DNA of 33,641 nt from positions 1 to 33,641 of the forward strand of contig JABFRC010000051.1 of NCBI GenBank assembly GCA_013141375.1. The letters run 5' to 3'. The position numbers and the translations under genes are program-made. This DNA comes from Methylococcaceae bacterium. Its GTDB lineage: Bacteria; Pseudomonadota; Gammaproteobacteria; Methylococcales; Methylomonadaceae. The first letter of the stretch is position 1. Each line of letters starts with the position of its first letter. Below the pieces are notes generated by a model. That model saw only the letters and a list, made by a program, of their open reading frames with translations. It searched no databases and was not told the origin of the DNA. Positions 9,800 through 20,400 of this stretch are shown here, in pieces.

Positions 9800-12445
9800 T
9801 TAAGCGTTATGATCTTCCGATTCAGTCGATGAAGTAATCTGGTTATCCAGATCTTCAGCGTCCAAACCGTCTTTTTTCAAGCGGTAATGCGGGGCAATAC
9901 TAATCAGTAAGGTGACCAAGGCTGCTGCGTAAGGCACAACCTGTACAGATAAAATTGCTATCCACAACCGGCCGCTAAAATTATCGAAATGCTCGATGGA
10001 AGCCATGGCAGCAATCGCAGAACCCAGCAAAATCAGCAAGAATAATTCCTGACGAATAATCATCAAGCCGGCGATTAATGGACCTTGCTTTTCATATTTA
10101 GGAGTACGCATAAAGGGTTTGCCCGATGTGAATAAACCTTGCAACGTGCCCTTTGCGACTGTATGGGTCAGAGCTAGTCCACTTAAAGCTGCGCCAACTG
10201 AATTCCAGAAAGAACACGGAACGCGCGCTTGATAGAGCCATAATCCTCGAAGAATCTTGAAGGAAAATATACCGACCGTTGGCAATAAAAAGACATTCGA
10301 CGGTAATTCGCTATGAATTGGATCGTACAGGATCACACCGGTTAACAGTAAGCTGGTGCCGGTAAATAACAAGGCTAAGGCATCAGAAAACCACGGTAAC
10401 CAGCCGGCGACAAAATAGTATTTTTGTGCGGAAGTCAGTGGTGAGGCTTTAGTCGGTAAAAAGCTTTTCCAATGTGCCTTGATGATTTGCATCGCGCCAT
10501 AAACCCAGCGGAAACGTTGCGTCATATAGCCTGACATGGTGTCCGGCATCAAACCTTGACCGAAAGAGTCTTTAACGTAGACAGAATCATAGCCTGCCTC
10601 ATACAAGCGCAAACCTAACTCAGAGTCTTCACAAATACACCATTGAGCCCAGTTACCTACTTCAAGCATGGCCGATTTTCTGACCATCGTCATGGTGCCA
10701 TGTTGAATGATGGCGTTGTATTCGTTGCGTTGCACCATGCCGATATTAAAGAAACCGGCATATTCCCAATAACAAAAGGATTTGAATGAGCTCAAGTCAC
10801 GGTCACGATAATCCTGTGGCGATTGCACGAAACCGACGTTTTCGTTATCGAAATACGGCACCATGGACTTGAGCCAATCCGGCGACAAAATGTAATCACT
10901 GTCGATGACGGCAATGATTTCTGCATCCGGTGCAGTTTGTTCAAGCGCGTGATTAAGCGCCCCGGCCTTGAAACCCGGCCAGTTTTCCAAGTGGAAGAAA
11001 CGGAACATTGGGCCCAAACGTTCGCAATCATCTCGCACCGGCTCCCAGATTGTCGGGTCATAAGTGTTGTTATCCATCACCAATACTTCAAGATTTGGAT
11101 AATCAACCTTGGCAAGTGCCTCTAATGTCTTGCGCACCATCATCGGCGGCTCATTATGAATTGGCAGGTGCAAAGAAACTTTGGGATATTTGAAGCTTTC
11201 TGAAGGCGTGAGCGGTTGAAAGGTTCGCGCTGTTTTGTGGTGCCAGATGACTTCGGCAATCTCCAAACTCTCAATCAACAAAATGGCCGCGGCCATGACC
11301 TGCATTAAGATCAAAATGCCCCAGAATACGGCGGTGAGCGGTGTCTGGTATTGTTGTGCGCCGATGGAGGCCGACCAAAAAATAACGGAAATTGCCAGGT
11401 TGGCCACCAAGCCGAAAAACAACAAGCCCGGTAATTTGAGACTTTTTCTGGTGAATAAGAACAATATCATCAGCACAAAGCTGAAAATCGCCGCGCCTGC
11501 CGCCCAATGTTGCCAGCCGGGTAAAGCGATGACATCGCCATCCATTGGATATTTAGGCTGTCTATCTGCGTTGAAAATACCCCAGTAAGCACCTGCCGAA
11601 CCTTCAATGGATTTTTTCCAGGGTTGGTCGAAGGCTTCTACGACGTAATAGGTGATTTTTTCTTTATCGGCACGGTTGAGAAACTCGCGCAGGAATTTTG
11701 CCTGATTAGGAATAGAGGCTGTTGCATGACCGAACGGTTGTCCATCTGAAGGCCAGCCAACTTCTGTAATGATGACCGGTTTGTTTGGATAAGCTTTTTG
11801 CACGTCATGGTAACGGTCGAAGACATAATCAACGGCGTCTTCTGCTGCAATACCTTCCCAAAATGGCAGGATGTGTACGGCAATAAAATCGACTTCATTA
11901 ACCAGTTCCGGATGCTTAATCCAGACGTCCCAAGTTTCAGATGCACTTACTGGTCGCCAGGTTCGTTGTTTGACTTCGCGGATATAACCAATCAATTGCT
12001 CTGCAGTGATATCGGCCCGGAGCAAGACTTCGTTGCCGACCATCAAGCGAATGATCTTGGGATTGTTTTCGCGACTGACGTTGATTAAGGTTTCAATTTC
12101 CTGGCGATTTTTTTCCAGATTGCCATCTATCCAGGCGCCGACAGTGACGTTGAGATTGTGTTTGGCAGCTAACTCAGGAATTTTGTCCAGGCCTTTTAGT
12201 ACGCTATAAGTACGAATTGCATGGGCTTTATTGGCAAGTAATGCCAAGTCATTATCAATATCGGCGGCACTTGGGAAAGTGCCGCTGGTCGGAGAATCAT
12301 CTTTACGCTGAGGGTCAAAAGTGACGCCCATCGTGGTTTTGGTCCAGGGTTGAAGTTGTAATGGATTATTGACATAACTCCAGATGCTGAAGTTAATGAC
12401 AACCAGCAGAGCAATAGCGATCACTGTAACTATTTTGGTTTTCAT
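9800..12445 (-). CDS. ndvB: Beta-glucan synthase: N-terminal GH17-like domain fused to membrane GT2 glycosyltransferase (NdvB-like)
   Basis: 881 aa. GH17-like motifs GNEVLLR and VIITEVGWPSDG; GT2 motifs AVIDSDYILSPDWL, CEDSELGLRLYEAGY and QRFRWVYGAMQ; multiple TM segments. Confidence 0.8.
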   Translation of the reverse strand: MKTKIVTVIAIALLVVINFSIWSYVNNPLQLQPWTKTTMGVTFDPQRKDDSPTSGTFPSAADIDNDLALLANKAHAIRTYSVLKGLDKIPELAAKHNLNVTVGAWIDGNLEKNRQEIETLINVSRENNPKIIRLMVGNEVLLRADITAEQLIGYIREVKQRTWRPVSASETWDVWIKHPELVNEVDFIAVHILPFWEGIAAEDAVDYVFDRYHDVQKAYPNKPVIITEVGWPSDGQPFGHATASIPNQAKFLREFLNRADKEKITYYVVEAFDQPWKKSIEGSAGAYWGIFNADRQPKYPMDGDVIALPGWQHWAAGAAIFSFVLMILFLFTRKSLKLPGLLFFGLVANLAISVIFWSASIGAQQYQTPLTAVFWGILILMQVMAAAILLIESLEIAEVIWHHKTARTFQPLTPSESFKYPKVSLHLPIHNEPPMMVRKTLEALAKVDYPNLEVLVMDNNTYDPTIWEPVRDDCERLGPMFRFFHLENWPGFKAGALNHALEQTAPDAEIIAVIDSDYILSPDWLKSMVPYFDNENVGFVQSPQDYRDRDLSSFKSFCYWEYAGFFNIGMVQRNEYNAIIQHGTMTMVRKSAMLEVGNWAQWCICEDSELGLRLYEAGYDSVYVKDSFGQGLMPDTMSGYMTQRFRWVYGAMQIIKAHWKSFLPTKASPLTSAQKYYFVAGWLPWFSDALALLFTGTSLLLTGVILYDPIHSELPSNVFLLPTVGIFSFKILRGLWLYQARVPCSFWNSVGAALSGLALTHTVAKGTLQGLFTSGKPFMRTPKYEKQGPLIAGLMIIRQELFLLILLGSAIAAMASIEHFDNFSGRLWIAILSVQVVPYAAALVTLLISIAPHYRLKKDGLDAEDLDNQITSSTESEDHNA

Positions 12446-12801: not shown

Positions 12802-15438
12802 TTACAAAGCCATTAGAAATGCGACTAAATCGTTGACTTCTGTTTTCGTTAAGCCGATGTCGAATCGGGCATTATAAAACTGAACAACACCGGTTAAATC
12901 CTTGGCCGAGCCATTGTGGAAATAGGGCGCACGCCCGTTTAATCCTCGTAACACAGGGCTGTTGAACTTTCCTATATCAATCCATTTTCCGGTAATAAGT
13001 GCTCGACCTGGATCAGTGACTTGAACTTCCACACCTGATTGTGATCGCAGGGTATAAACAGGCAGTTCGGGAGCCGAAGGGACATCGATCGTTGCACCGT
13101 CATTACTATGTATATTCGCAGCCATTGACACACCGATATTTAGCGGTAGGGCAGACGAATGATTGCCTATATTAGGTGTGTTGTGACAAGTGCCGCAGGT
13201 GCCGGTTATGGTTTTATTGGGAAACGGATCATTGGTATTGTACAGAGGATGGTTTGCTGTGCTATTGAGTCCTGGAACGTTGGCAATTAAAAATAATCGG
13301 GTATTGAAGATATGCTCGCCACGACCAATAGATTTCTGGAGTGGGGTTAATTCTTTATCTGAATTACCAGGCTCCCAGCGTTTGAATAAGTTAAAAACCT
13401 CCTTATCGTAGTCGCCACTTAAAGAATCATTTTGGCCAGTGAAATATTTGGGTGCTAATTGTTCGGCAATGAATCGTGGCCCTCCATTACTTTCCTCAAG
13501 ATTGAGACCATTGAGACTTCGTTGAGCCGAATACATGTTCAGCTCAAATGCCAAAATATCTGCATGAGCCTGCGTACCTGTTATAGGTCGATCACCTTGA
13601 GCATGTTTAATGACTCCGTCATTCGATTGGCTGAGCAAACCCGAGACTAGCACTGTCGTATTGGCGAAATTCTGTCCAGTAGCTATGGGCTGGAGAGACT
13701 TTCGACCATCCCACATCAATGTTGAGCGGAAAATGAGGTTCGTAGGTGGCAAGGGTCGACGAAAAAGAAACAATTGTTTGCTGATGCCGACATTCCCCGC
13801 AGGTATCTGACAATTTTGAGGATTAGAAGCACTTGCCAGAGCAAAATCTGCCGTTTCGGGTATGCCAAGCTGCACCCGAATCAGCCCATGATTGACCAAG
13901 TGACCTGACAATCGTGCATCAGGCGATTGCGATGAGCTTGTGGGCGGACAATCGGAACCGTCCACCGGAGCAAACAACGGATCTGAAGGGTGGCTGATCG
14001 CCAACTGTTGCGCGTGAGCTGGGGTAAATGTCCAGGCCTCTTCCGGCAAATGACAGGTATTGCAAGAACGACCGTTGCCACCCAGTTTCGAGAAAAAGCC
14101 ATGGGTGATTCCGGAATGGAAATCATTGGTCGAGGCCGACGCGGCGCTCGTTGGATAGTCCATTGTTGTTATCAGTTGTCCTGCCTGCTCATGTGCTTCC
14201 ATCCTATTATCTGGTAGACCATCGGCGCATACGCTGTATGGCATGGTTTCGAGTATTGAAAGTGCTTCACAGGCATTGACGATCCCGATGCTTGAGCTTT
14301 TCCGGTAAGTTGCCGATGTTTTTAAGACATCCCTTATTTCGTCAACAGACAATTGGGGGCGTAGTTGCAACAACAAAGCAATAACACCACTGACATGTGC
14401 CGTGGCTAGCGAACTGCCTGAATAAAAATCGTAACCTAGAGGAGTGGTGGTGAGAATGTCTATGCCGGGAGCAGCCAATGGAGCGGCTTGAAATGACCAG
14501 GATGGACGGGCAACTGTCCCTGTCGAATCTGAAGATATAACCGGAATGACAGATTCGACTGACGCAGGAAAACCTGGCTCTGCTTGCGATTCATTGGCCG
14601 CTGCGACCAGGATGATGCCTTTGCTGTAAGCTTTTGCAAGCAGCTTTGTCAACAATTTGTCTGGCGGCCCGGTCAAGCTCATATTGATGATGCGGACACC
14701 ATGATTAATCGCATAGTCGAGAGCTTTCGCTAATGTCCAGCTGGCGCAACGTGCTTTCTGAGAGTGGCTATCACTATGCCAACAAGCCTTAAGTGCCATT
14801 ATGCGGGCATCCGGGGCGACACCGCGAATACCCATGCCGTCATTGGCGCCAGCGCCAATTATGCCTGCCACTGCGGTACCGTGGGCATCGGTTTTGAAAC
14901 TGGGATCGCCGCCTTCGACAAAGTTTTGGGTGTCGATTATTTGCCCTGCCAGATCGGGATGATTGCTGTTGATACCCGTATCAATGATGGCAATAGCAAC
15001 GTTTTTTCCGGTACTAACCTGGTACACCTGGTCTGCGCCGATCAACTTCATCCCGTAATCCATGTCGGCTAAGGGATCGCCATTGCCTTTTGTCAGACTA
15101 TTGAAGAACTGATTGCGTTCCACCATTTGCACGCGTTTGTCTTCGGTCAATTCCAGAATAATCTGCTCGACGGATAAATGTTCAGGAACCCGATAAACCA
15201 AACAATTGACATGAATCGAAGTAAGACTAAACTCGCCCGCTTTGGCAATTCCATACCGGGTTTGAATTTCCCGGTCGATGCTCTCCCATTTATCGCGATG
15301 ATCTTCAGAAAGAGTGACGATCACCTGTCGCGATAAAAACTGTATAGGGGGTGATGCCAACTGCGCCTGTTTGCCAGCACAACCCAATAATAGTAAGAGA
15401 ACAAATAGACTGGCAGAGATTAATTTATGGATGTTCAT
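12802..15438 (-). CDS. Fusion lipoprotein: subtilase (S8) serine protease with propeptide-like N-terminus + C-terminal di-haem cytochrome c peroxidase/MauG-like domain
   Basis: 878 aa single ORF. Lipobox-like LLLLLGCAG; S8 motifs AIIDTGINSNHPDL (Asp), DAHGTAVAGIIGAG (His), SGSSLATAHVSGVIALLL (Ser). Haem motifs CNTCH (14050-14064, residues 459-463) and CGTCH (13183-13197, residues 748-752); typical C-terminal GRAPYFHNGSAKDLTGVVQFYN. Confidence 0.92.
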   Translation of the reverse strand: MNIHKLISASLFVLLLLLGCAGKQAQLASPPIQFLSRQVIVTLSEDHRDKWESIDREIQTRYGIAKAGEFSLTSIHVNCLVYRVPEHLSVEQIILELTEDKRVQMVERNQFFNSLTKGNGDPLADMDYGMKLIGADQVYQVSTGKNVAIAIIDTGINSNHPDLAGQIIDTQNFVEGGDPSFKTDAHGTAVAGIIGAGANDGMGIRGVAPDARIMALKACWHSDSHSQKARCASWTLAKALDYAINHGVRIINMSLTGPPDKLLTKLLAKAYSKGIILVAAANESQAEPGFPASVESVIPVISSDSTGTVARPSWSFQAAPLAAPGIDILTTTPLGYDFYSGSSLATAHVSGVIALLLQLRPQLSVDEIRDVLKTSATYRKSSSIGIVNACEALSILETMPYSVCADGLPDNRMEAHEQAGQLITTMDYPTSAASASTNDFHSGITHGFFSKLGGNGRSCNTCHLPEEAWTFTPAHAQQLAISHPSDPLFAPVDGSDCPPTSSSQSPDARLSGHLVNHGLIRVQLGIPETADFALASASNPQNCQIPAGNVGISKQLFLFRRPLPPTNLIFRSTLMWDGRKSLQPIATGQNFANTTVLVSGLLSQSNDGVIKHAQGDRPITGTQAHADILAFELNMYSAQRSLNGLNLEESNGGPRFIAEQLAPKYFTGQNDSLSGDYDKEVFNLFKRWEPGNSDKELTPLQKSIGRGEHIFNTRLFLIANVPGLNSTANHPLYNTNDPFPNKTITGTCGTCHNTPNIGNHSSALPLNIGVSMAANIHSNDGATIDVPSAPELPVYTLRSQSGVEVQVTDPGRALITGKWIDIGKFNSPVLRGLNGRAPYFHNGSAKDLTGVVQFYNARFDIGLTKTEVNDLVAFLMAL

Positions 15439-16261
15439 CTGGATTGACTATTGAATTGATGGACTCCGGCACCTGCTCAGGTGTCAGCACACGCACCTTG
15501 GGATTGTTCCGGTAGGCCGCCAACACCTTATCGATCTGCACTTTAGATGCTTGGCTTGCCGGAAGCATTATTGAATACACACCCAAGTCTGATGGGCCGG
15601 ACACCAACTGAGCATTCGTGGACTTGAGCAGATTACGAATTTCAAGCTCCGTCATGGTTTCGGCAAACGTGAGTGAGATTCTTAAATTGTGCGCTTCGAC
15701 GCCAACATTTGAGGTGGTCGTGAGCGTTTCGTAAAGTGCTCCCCCGTAGGTGAGATTCTCTGGATCAGACGGCACAAATATCAGGCAAACCGTAGCCAAC
15801 ACGATGCTTTCCAGCACCAATAGGCAACGCAAATACAACGGTAGCTCAGATAGGTTGGCGATTAATGCAATGATTCCGGAATGGTAACGGCCAATTTTTG
15901 ATTTTCCGGGATTGCTCGCTGCTGAAGCGTTAATTTTCGCAGCTTGCGTCAGGGAATCTTGAATAACCGCCGATGCTTTTTGTGTAGGTGCTTCGGCAAT
16001 AACAAGCCTCTCCAAAAGTTGGTTGAAATGGTCTGGGGGCGGCTGCCATAGGCTATGTTCCTTACGCACACGAAAAGCGCCCTTCAGTACCTGAGATTCA
16101 GACCACTCAGTGAGGCACAGGTCGCAAGTTTTCAGATGTTGCTCAACGGCAAGCCGTTCTGCAGTATTCAATTTACCAGCCATAAAGTCGGGAAGCTTCA
16201 TCGAGGCATGCTCATGCCGACGCTGCAAATCGTTAAATAATTTTTTGGATGTCATAACCAC
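15425..16261 (-). CDS. Membrane-anchored zinc-finger (zf-HC2/ZAS) anti-sigma factor with periplasmic subtilisin-propeptide-like C-terminal domain
   Basis: 278 aa. HLKTCDLC (HxxxCxxC), one TM segment (LRCLLVLESIVLATVCLIFV), C-terminal LRISLTFAETMTELEIRNLLKSTNAQLVSGPSDLGVYSIMLP...NNPKVRVLTPEQ. Overlaps the sigma gene by 10 nt and the protease gene by 14 nt. Confidence 0.85.
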   Translation of the reverse strand: MVMTSKKLFNDLQRRHEHASMKLPDFMAGKLNTAERLAVEQHLKTCDLCLTEWSESQVLKGAFRVRKEHSLWQPPPDHFNQLLERLVIAEAPTQKASAVIQDSLTQAAKINASAASNPGKSKIGRYHSGIIALIANLSELPLYLRCLLVLESIVLATVCLIFVPSDPENLTYGGALYETLTTTSNVGVEAHNLRISLTFAETMTELEIRNLLKSTNAQLVSGPSDLGVYSIMLPASQASKVQIDKVLAAYRNNPKVRVLTPEQVPESINSIVNPDEHP

Positions 16262-17028
16262 CTCCCCTGTTGAAAGGCTGTTGGTGTATAGCCTTTTCGC
16301 TCCAGGCGTTCGAAGAGTTTTTTGCGTGCATGAAACACGCGGGTTTTTATTGTATTGGCTGGACAGCCCAGCAAATCAGCGATTTCTTGGTAAGAATGGT
16401 CGCCAGCGTAGCTCAGCTCTATCACCTCTCGATGTTCTGCGGAAAGCGATTCCAAGCCGTCATTTAATGCATCTAAAAGCTCCCACGCCAAAATGATTTG
16501 TTCCGGTGTCGAGGAAGGATCAAGTGGTTCGGATCGACCTTCAGTAGGTGCGGAAACATTGATTTCTGGCTGTTCAACGGCAAATCGTCGGACTCGCTCT
16601 TGAATTTTCAAGCCCTTATTAAACGCAATACCGAACAGCCAAGTGGTAAATTTACCTTTTGCAGGGTCAAAATCACCCGCATGTTGCCAGATAGCCAACA
16701 TAACATCGTTCACGGCTTCACTTGCTAAATCATGGTTTTTCAACTGTTTTATGAGGAAGCTGCCAATTCTTTGCGCATAGTTATCATAAAATTGTTGAAA
16801 TGCGTCGCGATCCTGATGCTTGATTCGATCCAGAAGATCGGTCACAGCCTGATCCATCGCGTGTTGACTAGCCTTGTTCGAAAATTGCAATGAGCCGTAC
16901 CTCAAATCGTCAACAAACGACGGACTATAGTTTTCAAGAAATTTCATTGGACTCTCGATTACCTTACTCTCATGTATCAACATGAGTTCTTTCCAAGGAA
17001 TGTCGAAAAGGTTCATGCTATTTTTCAT
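16252..17028 (-). CDS. ECF-family RNA polymerase sigma factor (sigma-70 regions 2 and 4)
   Basis: 258 aa; region 2 AFQQFYDNYAQRIGSFLIKQLKNHDLASEAVNDVMLAIWQHAGDFDPAKGKFTTWLFGIAFNKGL; region 4 LSAEHREVIELSYAGDHSYQEIADLLGCPANTIKTRVFHARKKL. The N-terminal ~55 aa are atypical, so the true start may be the internal Met at about 16857. Confidence 0.92.
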   Translation of the reverse strand: MKNSMNLFDIPWKELMLIHESKVIESPMKFLENYSPSFVDDLRYGSLQFSNKASQHAMDQAVTDLLDRIKHQDRDAFQQFYDNYAQRIGSFLIKQLKNHDLASEAVNDVMLAIWQHAGDFDPAKGKFTTWLFGIAFNKGLKIQERVRRFAVEQPEINVSAPTEGRSEPLDPSSTPEQIILAWELLDALNDGLESLSAEHREVIELSYAGDHSYQEIADLLGCPANTIKTRVFHARKKLFERLERKGYTPTAFQQGRWL

Positions 17029-17294
17029 TTATTGTGATGTTGTCGATATAAAACCGATCGGTATCTGCTTTGGCAGGCTACTCCACAACATTGCTTATGT
17101 CGATTTGTCAGAGAAGTATTGATGCCTCGGGGGTGAAATCACCTGCCACTCGACCTGATTCCCAAGTTGTAGCGGGGGAACCAGCAGGTAGTCGAATTTT
17201 TTTGAACCTTTGGTGAGTTCCCGGTAATAACAAGATGAGTCTGCAGGCTTGAGTAAACGTAAGATACCGCCCATTCCAACTTGAGGTCATTATC

Positions 17295-18548
17295 ATGAAA
17301 ACCATAACATCTATGCATAACCCACGATTTTCCATGCCTGGCTTGGCGGTGACAGCGCTGTTTGCTGTGCTCGCACCCACGTTATCGACTGCGAATAGCG
17401 CCCCACATCCTGGCGATCCGTTCCCTGGACTCAGCGCCGAGCAACAAGCACTGTTCGATGGTGGAGAAGAATACTTTGTCCAGGAACTTACAGTGACCGA
17501 AGGCCTGGGGCCTGTGTACAGCGAGAAATCCTGCCTGGCATGTCATGCATTGGGGGGGATTGGCGGTGGTGATTCACTGGAAAATGCCAATCATTTTGTG
17601 CAGCGTTTTGGCACACTCAATGCCAATGGCAGCTACAACAACCTGGCTGTGTTCGGCGGTGATGTACTGCAAACTCGATCAATTTCTGATGACCCTGGGG
17701 CGAATGGCTGTAAGGTGGCTGCTGAAGTCATCCCGCCGGAAGCAAGTATTCTAGCTCTTCGAAACCCACTGCCGATGTTCGGCATCGGCTTGATAGCGGC
17801 GATCCCGGATGCCACGATTCTAGCTGGCGCACGAACCGCACCGGATGCGGACGGCGTTTTAGGTCGTCCGAATCAAGCACCTACTGCGGCACGTCCCGGA
17901 CGTTTCGGCTGGAAGGCACAGACGGTGGACCTGGCAGCGTTTAACGCCGCCGCCGCCAATGGCACGATGGGTTTCACTTCATTGTTATCGCCAAGCGAGC
18001 AAAAACCGCAGGGCTTGGATACGCCTGCCGGATGTACAAATGCCGAGCTAGGCGTTGTACCTTTTGATGATTTCATCCCTGAAATTACCGCTTGGGAAGT
18101 CATGCTGGCGCCAGTAAAACAAAAGAGTTTTGATGAAGAAGCTCGTCGTGGACAGCGGGTTTTCAACGACATTGGCTGCGCAAAATGCCACACACCCGTG
18201 ATGCAGAGTGGGTCAAACTTCCAGGTAAAACGAACTGATGGCACATTACTGGCTGTCGAAGCCGTAAGCGATAAGCCCGTAAGGCTCTATAGTGATTTGT
18301 TGCTGCATGACATGGGCGCGGATATGGATGAAAAAGTGACCATGGGGACGGCCAAAGGCAGTGAGTTCCGCACCGCACCTCTGTGGGGTCTTCGATTACG
18401 AACCGCTTTCCTACACGATGGCAGCGCAAGTTCGGTCTATGATGCAATAAAGGATCACGGTGGCGAGTCCGCGATTATCCGCGATCGCTATTTGAAGCTG
18501 TTGCCCCGAGATAAAAAGGCTATCGCTAAATTTCTGGATAAGATTTGA
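17295..18548 (+). CDS. Periplasmic di-haem oxidoreductase family protein (DUF1111 / thiol-oxidoreductase-like)
   Basis: 417 aa; signal peptide LAVTALFAVLAPTLSTANSA; haem motifs CLACH (17532-17546) and CAKCH (18177-18191); FRTAPLWGLRLRTAFLHDGSASSVYDAIKDHGGE C-terminal signature. Confidence 0.9.
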   Translation: MKTITSMHNPRFSMPGLAVTALFAVLAPTLSTANSAPHPGDPFPGLSAEQQALFDGGEEYFVQELTVTEGLGPVYSEKSCLACHALGGIGGGDSLENANHFVQRFGTLNANGSYNNLAVFGGDVLQTRSISDDPGANGCKVAAEVIPPEASILALRNPLPMFGIGLIAAIPDATILAGARTAPDADGVLGRPNQAPTAARPGRFGWKAQTVDLAAFNAAAANGTMGFTSLLSPSEQKPQGLDTPAGCTNAELGVVPFDDFIPEITAWEVMLAPVKQKSFDEEARRGQRVFNDIGCAKCHTPVMQSGSNFQVKRTDGTLLAVEAVSDKPVRLYSDLLLHDMGADMDEKVTMGTAKGSEFRTAPLWGLRLRTAFLHDGSASSVYDAIKDHGGESAIIRDRYLKLLPRDKKAIAKFLDKI

Positions 18549-18744: not shown

Positions 18745-20400
18745 TTGTGTAGATGTCGATGCCTTGGGGATACTTCCTATAATGTCGTCACCGTGAGATG
18801 CAAAATGATGGTACCCAGCACAATCACAACCATGCGCTCTGACAGCACAAAAATGCAGTGCTACACCTCTCTTCGAACAGTGAAACTATGGGCGCGTCGC
18901 CGTTGTTGGGCTACCCCCAAATGTCTGCTGTTAATTCCGTTGCTTTTCTCCGGCCTATCGCTGTTAGGCAATTTTGCCTGTGCTGAAGAGGCCAAACCTC
19001 TGGGGCAAATCAATGATTACCTGCGCGTTACCGGCGAATTGCAAAGTCGCTACGAAGCGTGGGATTATTTTCAGCCGTTTCCAGCGCTGAACAACAACAA
19101 CGATTATGATTATTGGGGGCTACGTGCTCGGCTCGGCGTCCTGTTCACGACGTCTTATGTTGACGGCTATGCACAGGGTCAATATTCCGGCATTTACGGT
19201 CTTCCCGATAATGCGGTTGCGGTTCCTGGCGGTGGCCTGGGATTGGGTGCGGCTTATTTTTCGGAAAATAAGGCTACCTCCCCCAGCAATCTGTTTTTAA
19301 AGCAGGCTAATCTGAACTTTAAATTCGCAGCTTTGGGACTGCCCGGCATGTTCCTGAAAGTCGGCCGATTCGAACTTCTGGACGGCATGGAATACAAAAC
19401 CGGTGTGACCAAGTTTGATGGACTGAAGCTGACACGCGTCTCGCAGCGTCTGGTAGGGGCGTTCGGATTCACTCATGTGAGCCGAAGTTTCGATGGCTTT
19501 TCAGCTGTTTATGACCAACCCGCTTTCAATGTGACTGCGAGTGGCGTCCGTCCAACGCAGGGAGGGTTTAATGTCCAGGCACAAGATGAGATAAGTAATA
19601 TCGATCTGTTTTATACCGCATTGACTGGCAAGAAGGATGTGCTGTTGCCGGACACTGAAGGCAGGCTGTTTTACATGTATTACGATGATGACCGTAATAC
19701 CCAAGCGCTGGATAACCGTCCTGCCATCGATAGATCCCTGCTTAATCATCAGAATTTAGCCATTCACACCATCGGCACCCATTGGCTTACGCTGCATCAA
19801 CGGGGTGCGGACAGTATCGATGGTCTTTTGTGGGGGGCGTACCAGTTTGGCGATTGGACCCAACAACATCATCGAGCTTGGGCTCTCGATGCCGAAGTGG
19901 GTTATCAGTGGGGAGATCTTCCCTTGAAGCCTTGGCTACGCGCCGTCTATTTTCGAGGCTCGGGCGATGATGATTCCACCGACGGTACGCACAAAACATT
20001 TTTCCAAATGCTTCCTACCGTGCGAACCTACGCCAAGTTTCCCTATTTCAACTTGATGAATTTGCAAGATGTGTTCGTCGAAATGATCGTGTTGCCGACT
20101 CAAAAAATTAAAGTCGCAATCGATGTTCATCATCTGTCACTGGCCGATTCGAACGACTTGTTCTACGCCGGTGCGGGAGCTACTTCGCGTTCAGGATCAT
20201 TCGGCTACCAGGGCCGTTCCTCGGGTGGTAACAACAACGTGGGGGAACTGGTGGATTTAACTTTTACTCATGCGTTAACCAACGAATTGTCATGGAGCGT
20301 CTACTACGCCCACGCTTTTGGAGGTAAGGTCATTTCGAACATTTATCAAGGAAAAAAAGATGCCGATTATGCCTTCGTAGAGTTAAGTCTGGCTTTCTGA
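18745..20400 (+). CDS. Outer-membrane beta-barrel, alginate-export (AlgE/DUF) family-like
   Basis: 551 aa; signal-like CLLLIPLLFSGLSLLGNFACA; alternating aromatic beta-strand composition, LQSRYEAWDYF...GLRARLGVLF, FLKVGRFELLDG, ends ...YAFVELSLAF with terminal Phe. The start codon is uncertain (an internal Met near 18807 or 18832 is possible). Confidence 0.75.
   Translation: MCRCRCLGDTSYNVVTVRCKMMVPSTITTMRSDSTKMQCYTSLRTVKLWARRRCWATPKCLLLIPLLFSGLSLLGNFACAEEAKPLGQINDYLRVTGELQSRYEAWDYFQPFPALNNNNDYDYWGLRARLGVLFTTSYVDGYAQGQYSGIYGLPDNAVAVPGGGLGLGAAYFSENKATSPSNLFLKQANLNFKFAALGLPGMFLKVGRFELLDGMEYKTGVTKFDGLKLTRVSQRLVGAFGFTHVSRSFDGFSAVYDQPAFNVTASGVRPTQGGFNVQAQDEISNIDLFYTALTGKKDVLLPDTEGRLFYMYYDDDRNTQALDNRPAIDRSLLNHQNLAIHTIGTHWLTLHQRGADSIDGLLWGAYQFGDWTQQHHRAWALDAEVGYQWGDLPLKPWLRAVYFRGSGDDDSTDGTHKTFFQMLPTVRTYAKFPYFNLMNLQDVFVEMIVLPTQKIKVAIDVHHLSLADSNDLFYAGAGATSRSGSFGYQGRSSGGNNNVGELVDLTFTHALTNELSWSVYYAHAFGGKVISNIYQGKKDADYAFVELSLAF

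Follow-up and report, generated by a model that had tools for sequence, protein, structure and literature searches.

Subtilase propeptide-like domain on the anti-sigma factor of a conserved sigma factor/anti-sigma factor/S8 protease cassette

In a 33,641-nt stretch of DNA from a Methylococcaceae bacterium (GCA_013141375.1, contig JABFRC010000051.1; here called the window, whose positions are used for all coordinates), three minus-strand genes encode an extracytoplasmic function (ECF) sigma factor, a membrane-bound zinc-binding anti-sigma (ZAS) factor, and an exported lipoprotein in which an S8 (subtilase) protease is fused to a di-haem domain. We found that the sigma/anti-sigma/S8 trio is a broadly conserved cassette across bacteria. 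We also found that the anti-sigma factor ends in a domain that is, as judged from sequence profiles and structure predictions, homologous to the inhibitory propeptide found at the N-terminus of S8 proteases, and that is predicted to lie outside the membrane. Control of the anti-sigma brake by the protease, exerted through this copy of a propeptide, is a likely function of the cassette.

Conservation of the cassette

The three open reading frames overlap, as the earlier note on this DNA had described: the sigma and anti-sigma genes share 10 nt and the anti-sigma and S8 genes 14 nt, although the starts of the sigma and anti-sigma genes probably need correction (see below). The gene identities given in that note were likewise borne out by Pfam, Protein Data Bank (PDB) matches and alignment. 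The sigma gene (16252..17028; 258 amino acids as called) matches Sigma70_r2 and r4_2, the sigma2 and sigma4 regions being the only ones present. The anti-sigma factor (15425..16261; 278 amino acids from a GTG start) matches zf-HC2 with an E value of 1.1e-5, and the 878-residue fusion lipoprotein (12802..15438; lipobox cysteine Cys20) matches Peptidase_S8 with an E value of 4e-43.

The co-occurrence of these genes in this order across genomes, which the earlier note had anticipated, proved to be widespread. When 80 named loci were collected by similarity to the S8 half alone, homologues of both the sigma and the anti-sigma genes were found to adjoin the S8 gene in 69; several of the incomplete loci end at contig edges. 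Order and strand were the same in 91 of the 93 loci at which all three genes are present, a set that includes a few duplicate fetches of one contig; such recurrence goes far beyond what chance would produce. The hosts include Methylococcales, Burkholderiales (Duganella, Massilia, Janthinobacterium, Paraburkholderia and Variovorax), Nitrosomonas, Rhodanobacteraceae, Dyella/Luteibacter/Lysobacter, Alphaproteobacteria (Sulfitobacter and Novosphingobium), Acidobacteriota and Eremiobacteraeota. The genome from which the window comes carries a second trio, on contig C68 (locus L050).

Many of these loci hold a further gene. An outer-membrane porin of the TorF/Gcw_chp type (PF09694, TIGR02001), which forms a 51-locus cluster, mostly lies directly upstream of the sigma gene on the same strand (L034, L037, L048, L049 and L053, among others). 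In many lineages, the cassette probably has this porin as a fourth component.

The propeptide-like domain of the anti-sigma factor

The anti-sigma factor begins with a ZAS zinc finger, whose H42-x3-C46-x2-C49 residues are conserved, and contains a single predicted transmembrane helix at about residues 142-162. Its last 70-odd residues (about residues 191-263; 15473..15691, minus strand) are predicted by AlphaFold, at about 90 pLDDT, to adopt a beta-alpha-beta-beta-alpha-beta topology resembling the Fervidolysin_NPro domain and the subtilisin prosegment. Foldseek matched this domain to pro-subtilisin E (3whi; probability 0.99, 2.7 A) and to the prosegments of subtilisin BPN' (3cnq_P, root-mean-square deviation 2.4 A; 1spb_P).

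Structure matches alone being shared with other folds, it was the sequence evidence, from Pfam and from profiles, that decided the question of homology. PF22148, the fervidolysin prodomain, was matched by 15 of 20 diverse anti-sigma domains (best E value 9.5e-6), and no other Pfam family was matched by more than one of the 20; the window domain by itself falls below the Pfam cut-off. Run against whole genomes, a profile of the anti-sigma domain also detected the N-terminal prodomains of unrelated S8 proteases, and the two that were checked (at L172 and L175) both score as PF22148. Furthermore, a profile-profile comparison of the anti-sigma domain with the prodomain of the trio's own S8 protease gave a probability of 88% and a score of 30.7; the maximum over 200 column shuffles was 20.0.

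The domain is closely linked to the cassette. All 102 of the 102 anti-sigma factors carry it, and it ends 0-14 residues from their C-terminus; in an inhibitory propeptide, the C-terminus is the active-site tail. Across 151 genomes in which S8 genes were found independently, 55 of 61 strong matches to the domain lie upstream of an S8 gene and within 300 nt of it.

In the S8 protease, the catalytic domain (residues 144-380; 14299..15009, minus strand) has Asp153, His186, Asn252 and Ser343 intact, and these four catalytic residues are conserved in at least 120 of 125 S8 sequences. The protease also has an N-terminal propeptide domain of its own (residues about 38-108; 15115..15327, minus strand), again predicted as beta-alpha-beta-beta-alpha-beta, and the AlphaFold model of this N-terminus matches unprocessed pro-subtilisins in Foldseek. 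Three cysteines, Cys79 in the propeptide and Cys219 and Cys231 in the catalytic domain, are retained in 115 of the 125 sequences and could possibly form a thiol switch or disulfide lock. At GC-rich loci (L169, L118, L119 and others), antisense and overlapping open reading frames stretch the apparent length of S8 to about 600-700 amino acids; these overlong frames are N-terminal read-through, not fusions.

The domain was also seen outside ECF systems: at L177 (4621-6375), it occupies the C-terminus of a 585-residue sigma-54 activator of the VpsR/NtrC-like type. This suggests that the receptor domain can be transferred from one kind of regulator to another.

A proposed protease-controlled switch

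In the reading that we favour, and to which we give moderate confidence, the S8 protease would bind to the propeptide-like domain of the anti-sigma factor and cut it, which would free the sigma factor to act on its own operon and on secreted redox genes. The zinc-finger part of the anti-sigma factor would hold the ECF sigma factor at the inner membrane; crossing the membrane once, the anti-sigma factor would display the S8 propeptide copy outside, at its extreme C-terminus. The exported S8 lipoprotein would be synthesised as a pro-enzyme bearing a propeptide of its own and, once active, would recognise the anti-sigma domain as a pseudo-propeptide and clip the anti-sigma factor. This clipping would begin the breakdown of the anti-sigma factor and release the sigma factor, which would then transcribe its own operon, including the protease gene, in a positive feedback, and would also activate nearby genes for secreted redox and outer-membrane proteins. 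That S8 binds and cuts the anti-sigma factor, as well as the direction of control, we infer. With rather less confidence, and at somewhat under even chances, we suggest that the cassette embodies a new mode of transmembrane signalling: an ECF anti-sigma family spanning several phyla would use as its receptor the propeptide of a subtilase encoded in trans, so that the state of the partner subtilase (mature, inhibited, or locked by thiols or disulfides through Cys79/219/231) would be read as cleavage of a bait, and the same domain would also have moved to caspase-like cassettes and to a sigma-54 activator.

Several observations weigh against the favoured reading. Foldseek ranks other ferredoxin-like folds near the prosegments, with no match at E < 0.001, and a PDB sequence search with the profile of the anti-sigma domain returned designed repeat proteins only and no propeptide. 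A few anti-sigma factors that bear the domain have no S8 neighbour; in two of these cases, L181 (3874-5388) and L184 (4461-6475), the sigma gene and the gene for the propeptide-domain anti-sigma factor are followed by a caspase-like Peptidase_C14 in the S8 slot, and the domain is therefore not strictly tied to S8. The same replacement of S8 by C14 nonetheless favours a dedicated proteolytic role, and this bears on the main rival, in which the domain mainly inhibits S8 or helps it to fold at the membrane, the anti-sigma factor senses active protease, and some other protease makes the first cut. RsiV, which binds lysozyme, offers an analogy for such a brake, and the free end of the domain at the C-terminus, like that of an inhibitory propeptide after cleavage, fits it, as does the possession by S8 of its own propeptide, so that the anti-sigma copy need not serve maturation. 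However, a dedicated protease that recurs at these loci, even when swapped for C14, fits a role in proteolytic signalling more simply, and we consider this rival unlikely. It is far less probable that S8 is a mere output of the sigma factor that never acts on the anti-sigma factor, with a propeptide-like fold arising by coincidence. S8 does sit in a sigma-driven operon, and at L155 an S8 gene is preceded by a separate copy of the promoter even though the sigma and anti-sigma genes are on the opposite strand; on the other hand, propeptide homology in 102 of 102 anti-sigma factors together with 90% linkage to S8 would be an extraordinary coincidence.

Some elements of this favoured reading have counterparts in known systems. 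In RsiV-SigV of Bacillus, the anti-sigma ectodomain is an inhibitor-like receptor for lysozyme, and signal peptidase makes the cut. The proposal made here likewise gives the anti-sigma ectodomain the part of an inhibitor-like receptor that binds a secreted enzyme, but that enzyme would be the protease of the cassette itself rather than an external lysozyme whose binding leads to a cut by signal peptidase. Lysozyme sensing by RsiV-SigV is cited in PMC7406223. The sigma-E-type envelope stress systems AlgU-MucA-MucB-MucD, whose operon includes the gene for MucD, and RpoE-RseA-DegS (PMC8103513) also combine an ECF sigma factor, a membrane anti-sigma factor and a serine protease outside the membrane, and in them the anti-sigma factor is removed by regulated proteolysis, the outline proposed here. 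Their proteases belong to the HtrA type, with a trypsin fold and PDZ domains, whereas the cassette protease is a subtilase of family S8, and the ectodomain of the cassette anti-sigma factor is a subtilase propeptide rather than an ectodomain of the RseA/MucA type. Assignment of the cassette to the RpoE/RseA/DegS or AlgU/MucD type was excluded, as its protease is not an HtrA site-1 protease. ECF54 sigma genes have subtilase and CHAT protease neighbours and no anti-sigma factor, and proteolysis of the sigma factor itself has been proposed for them (PMC8999054); here too the sigma gene adjoins a subtilase, but a ZAS anti-sigma factor is part of the cassette. The anti-sigma domain has the same fold as subtilisin prosegments and the fervidolysin prodomain (PF22148; PDB 3whi, 1spb, 1r6v), with detectable sequence homology, and differs from them in being placed at the C-terminus of a separate membrane regulator, in addition to the protease's own propeptide. 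No description of a sigma/anti-sigma/subtilase cassette or of a propeptide-bearing anti-sigma factor was found in the literature searched, and the ECF classification literature may mention the neighbourhood.

For many ECF anti-sigma factors, it is not known which part receives the signal. In this cassette, the proposed receptor can be recognised as the natural ligand of the protease encoded beside it, and what was a vague juxtaposition of a sigma factor and a protease becomes a specific, testable pair. The hosts include the tractable genera Janthinobacterium, Massilia, Duganella, Paraburkholderia and Variovorax, and the promoter motif described below provides a ready read-out.

Promoter motif, predicted outputs and the haem fusion

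From the regions upstream of the sigma genes we derived a conserved bipartite ECF promoter, TGAACCTTT-N11-13-GGWA, which precedes the sigma gene in 60 of 91 loci, compared with 3-6 in shuffles. Its strict form, TGAAC[CT]NTT-N11-13-GGWA, has 48 matches in 1.4 Mb of trio loci, and the reversed pattern has 0. The CC form has 6 matches in the whole genome of the window (control, 2), of which 3 are at the two trio loci and 3 inside genes. In the window, one copy precedes the trio operon (16991..17015, minus strand; TGAACCTTTT-N11-GGAA). A GAAC-type -35 promoter upstream of the sigma gene, a feature of autoregulated ECF sigma factors, is thus present, and would fit autoregulation here.

A second copy (17203..17226, plus strand; TGAACCTTT-N11-GGTA) faces two genes divergent from the trio, namely that for a secreted di-haem protein of the DHOR family (17295..18548, plus strand; 417 amino acids, two CxxCH) and, downstream of it, that for an outer-membrane barrel of the Alginate_exp family (18745..20400, plus strand). 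We predict that the DHOR gene is a target of the sigma factor and that the barrel is a probable co-output; in the favoured reading, these would be the redox and porin genes that the freed sigma factor activates. At other loci, the motif precedes genes for a beta-propeller di-haem protein (L071 and L072), a plastocyanin-domain/sorbosone-dehydrogenase protein (L101), propeller proteins of the TIGR03118 type (L158 and L161), FG-GAP and RTX proteins, and a 204-residue secreted protein (L077). At L113 (2423-5092), it precedes a divergent surface protein with a cytochrome c motif, a thioredoxin-like domain, choice-of-anchor D repeats and a JDVT-CTERM sorting signal. In the window's own genome, an RTX calcium-binding repeat protein with an ECF promoter is encoded upstream of the second trio (C68, L050:1496-2380). 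The positions of the motif thus suggest that the outputs include secreted redox proteins, and c-type haem proteins seem to belong to the switch as regulated products rather than as its sensor.

The C-terminal half of the window protease (residues 425-878; 12805..14166, minus strand) shows weak CCP_MauG/RoxA-like matches in Pfam and carries two CxxCH haem-binding motifs (14050-14064 and 13183-13197, minus strand). Its PDB sequence matches are a 'di-heme enzyme' (6e1c), bacterial cytochrome c peroxidases (BCCP) and MauG. It aligns over its full length, at 33-44% identity, with 15 stand-alone secreted di-haem relatives, one of them a paralogue from the window's own genome (contig C351, locus L045); both CxxCH are invariant, and a conserved C-terminal LR-x4-P-Y-F-x-N-G region is kept. 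These sequence comparisons confirm the haem half as a di-haem enzyme of the BCCP/MauG type. A separate alignment that mixed S8-only and haem-only rows was rejected, the haem rows having been forced onto S8 columns. MauG, BCCP and CorB-SACCP are di-haem enzymes of methanotrophs (PMC3912023). Like them, the fused half and the neighbours linked to the promoter are members of the di-haem peroxidase superfamily; unlike them, the half is fused to a protease, and no relative found has such a fusion. No CorA/MopE partner turned up at the locus, where no search was aimed at one.

The earlier note had proposed a protease-gated switch in which the haem domain lets the protease read a redox, peroxide or metal cue. 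The dedicated protease is upheld by the conserved trio and the propeptide-like domain; the haem part is not. Among 110 unique S8 relatives, CxxCH motifs occur in the window protein only; its catalytic serine motif is followed by 532 residues, against a median of 63, and the fusion was found in none of 311 order-level genomes, a 370-genome class sample, the 80 named loci or viral contigs. Conservation, whose absence the earlier note had named as a ground for refutation, therefore extends to the trio and not to the trio with haem, and haem as a conserved sensor was ruled out on this ground. The haem half follows the protease in frame, has both CxxCH and corresponds to a mature haem enzyme without its signal peptide, so the two halves could act as one protein in which the di-haem domain gates attack on the anti-sigma factor; with the cassette conserved without haem and the fusion unique, we regard such gating as very improbable. 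The haem half instead looks like a genuine one-off, lineage-specific domain fusion outside the conserved cassette, and would be one more output-type enzyme joined to the protease in one lineage: a natural experiment rather than the principle of the switch. An assembly artefact of this metagenome-derived genome would account for a fusion seen once only, in one assembly. We consider this improbable, as the reading frame is continuous, the junction skips exactly the signal peptides of the stand-alone haem proteins, and two of them have a mature N-terminus similar to the linker VCADGLPDN.

The promoter also bears on the gene starts. The sigma start at 17028 is doubtful and probably lies some 80 nt too far upstream, because the conserved promoter at 16991-17015 overlaps its codons 5-13 and because relatives are mostly about 190-220 amino acids long; ATG 16947 (codon 28), giving about 231 amino acids, is more likely. 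For the anti-sigma factor, ATG 16255, which is preceded by AGGGGAGG, is better placed than the GTG and is the likely start; with it, the sigma/anti-sigma overlap becomes the usual 4-nt ATGA. An overlap of exactly 4 nt occurs in 51 of 95 related anti-sigma/S8 pairs.

Other genes were noted beside the trios. A protein of about 790 amino acids with beta-propeller and di-haem domains adjoins the trio within the regions L071:1784-5720, L072:1250-5052 and L033:6669-9056. L071 and L072 also encode a 440-residue barrel-like protein without a Pfam family, which has no detectable homology to the Alginate_exp barrel of the window. Directly downstream of the window trio, positions 9800-12445 encode a membrane protein that combines GH17-like domains with those of a family 2 glycosyltransferase.

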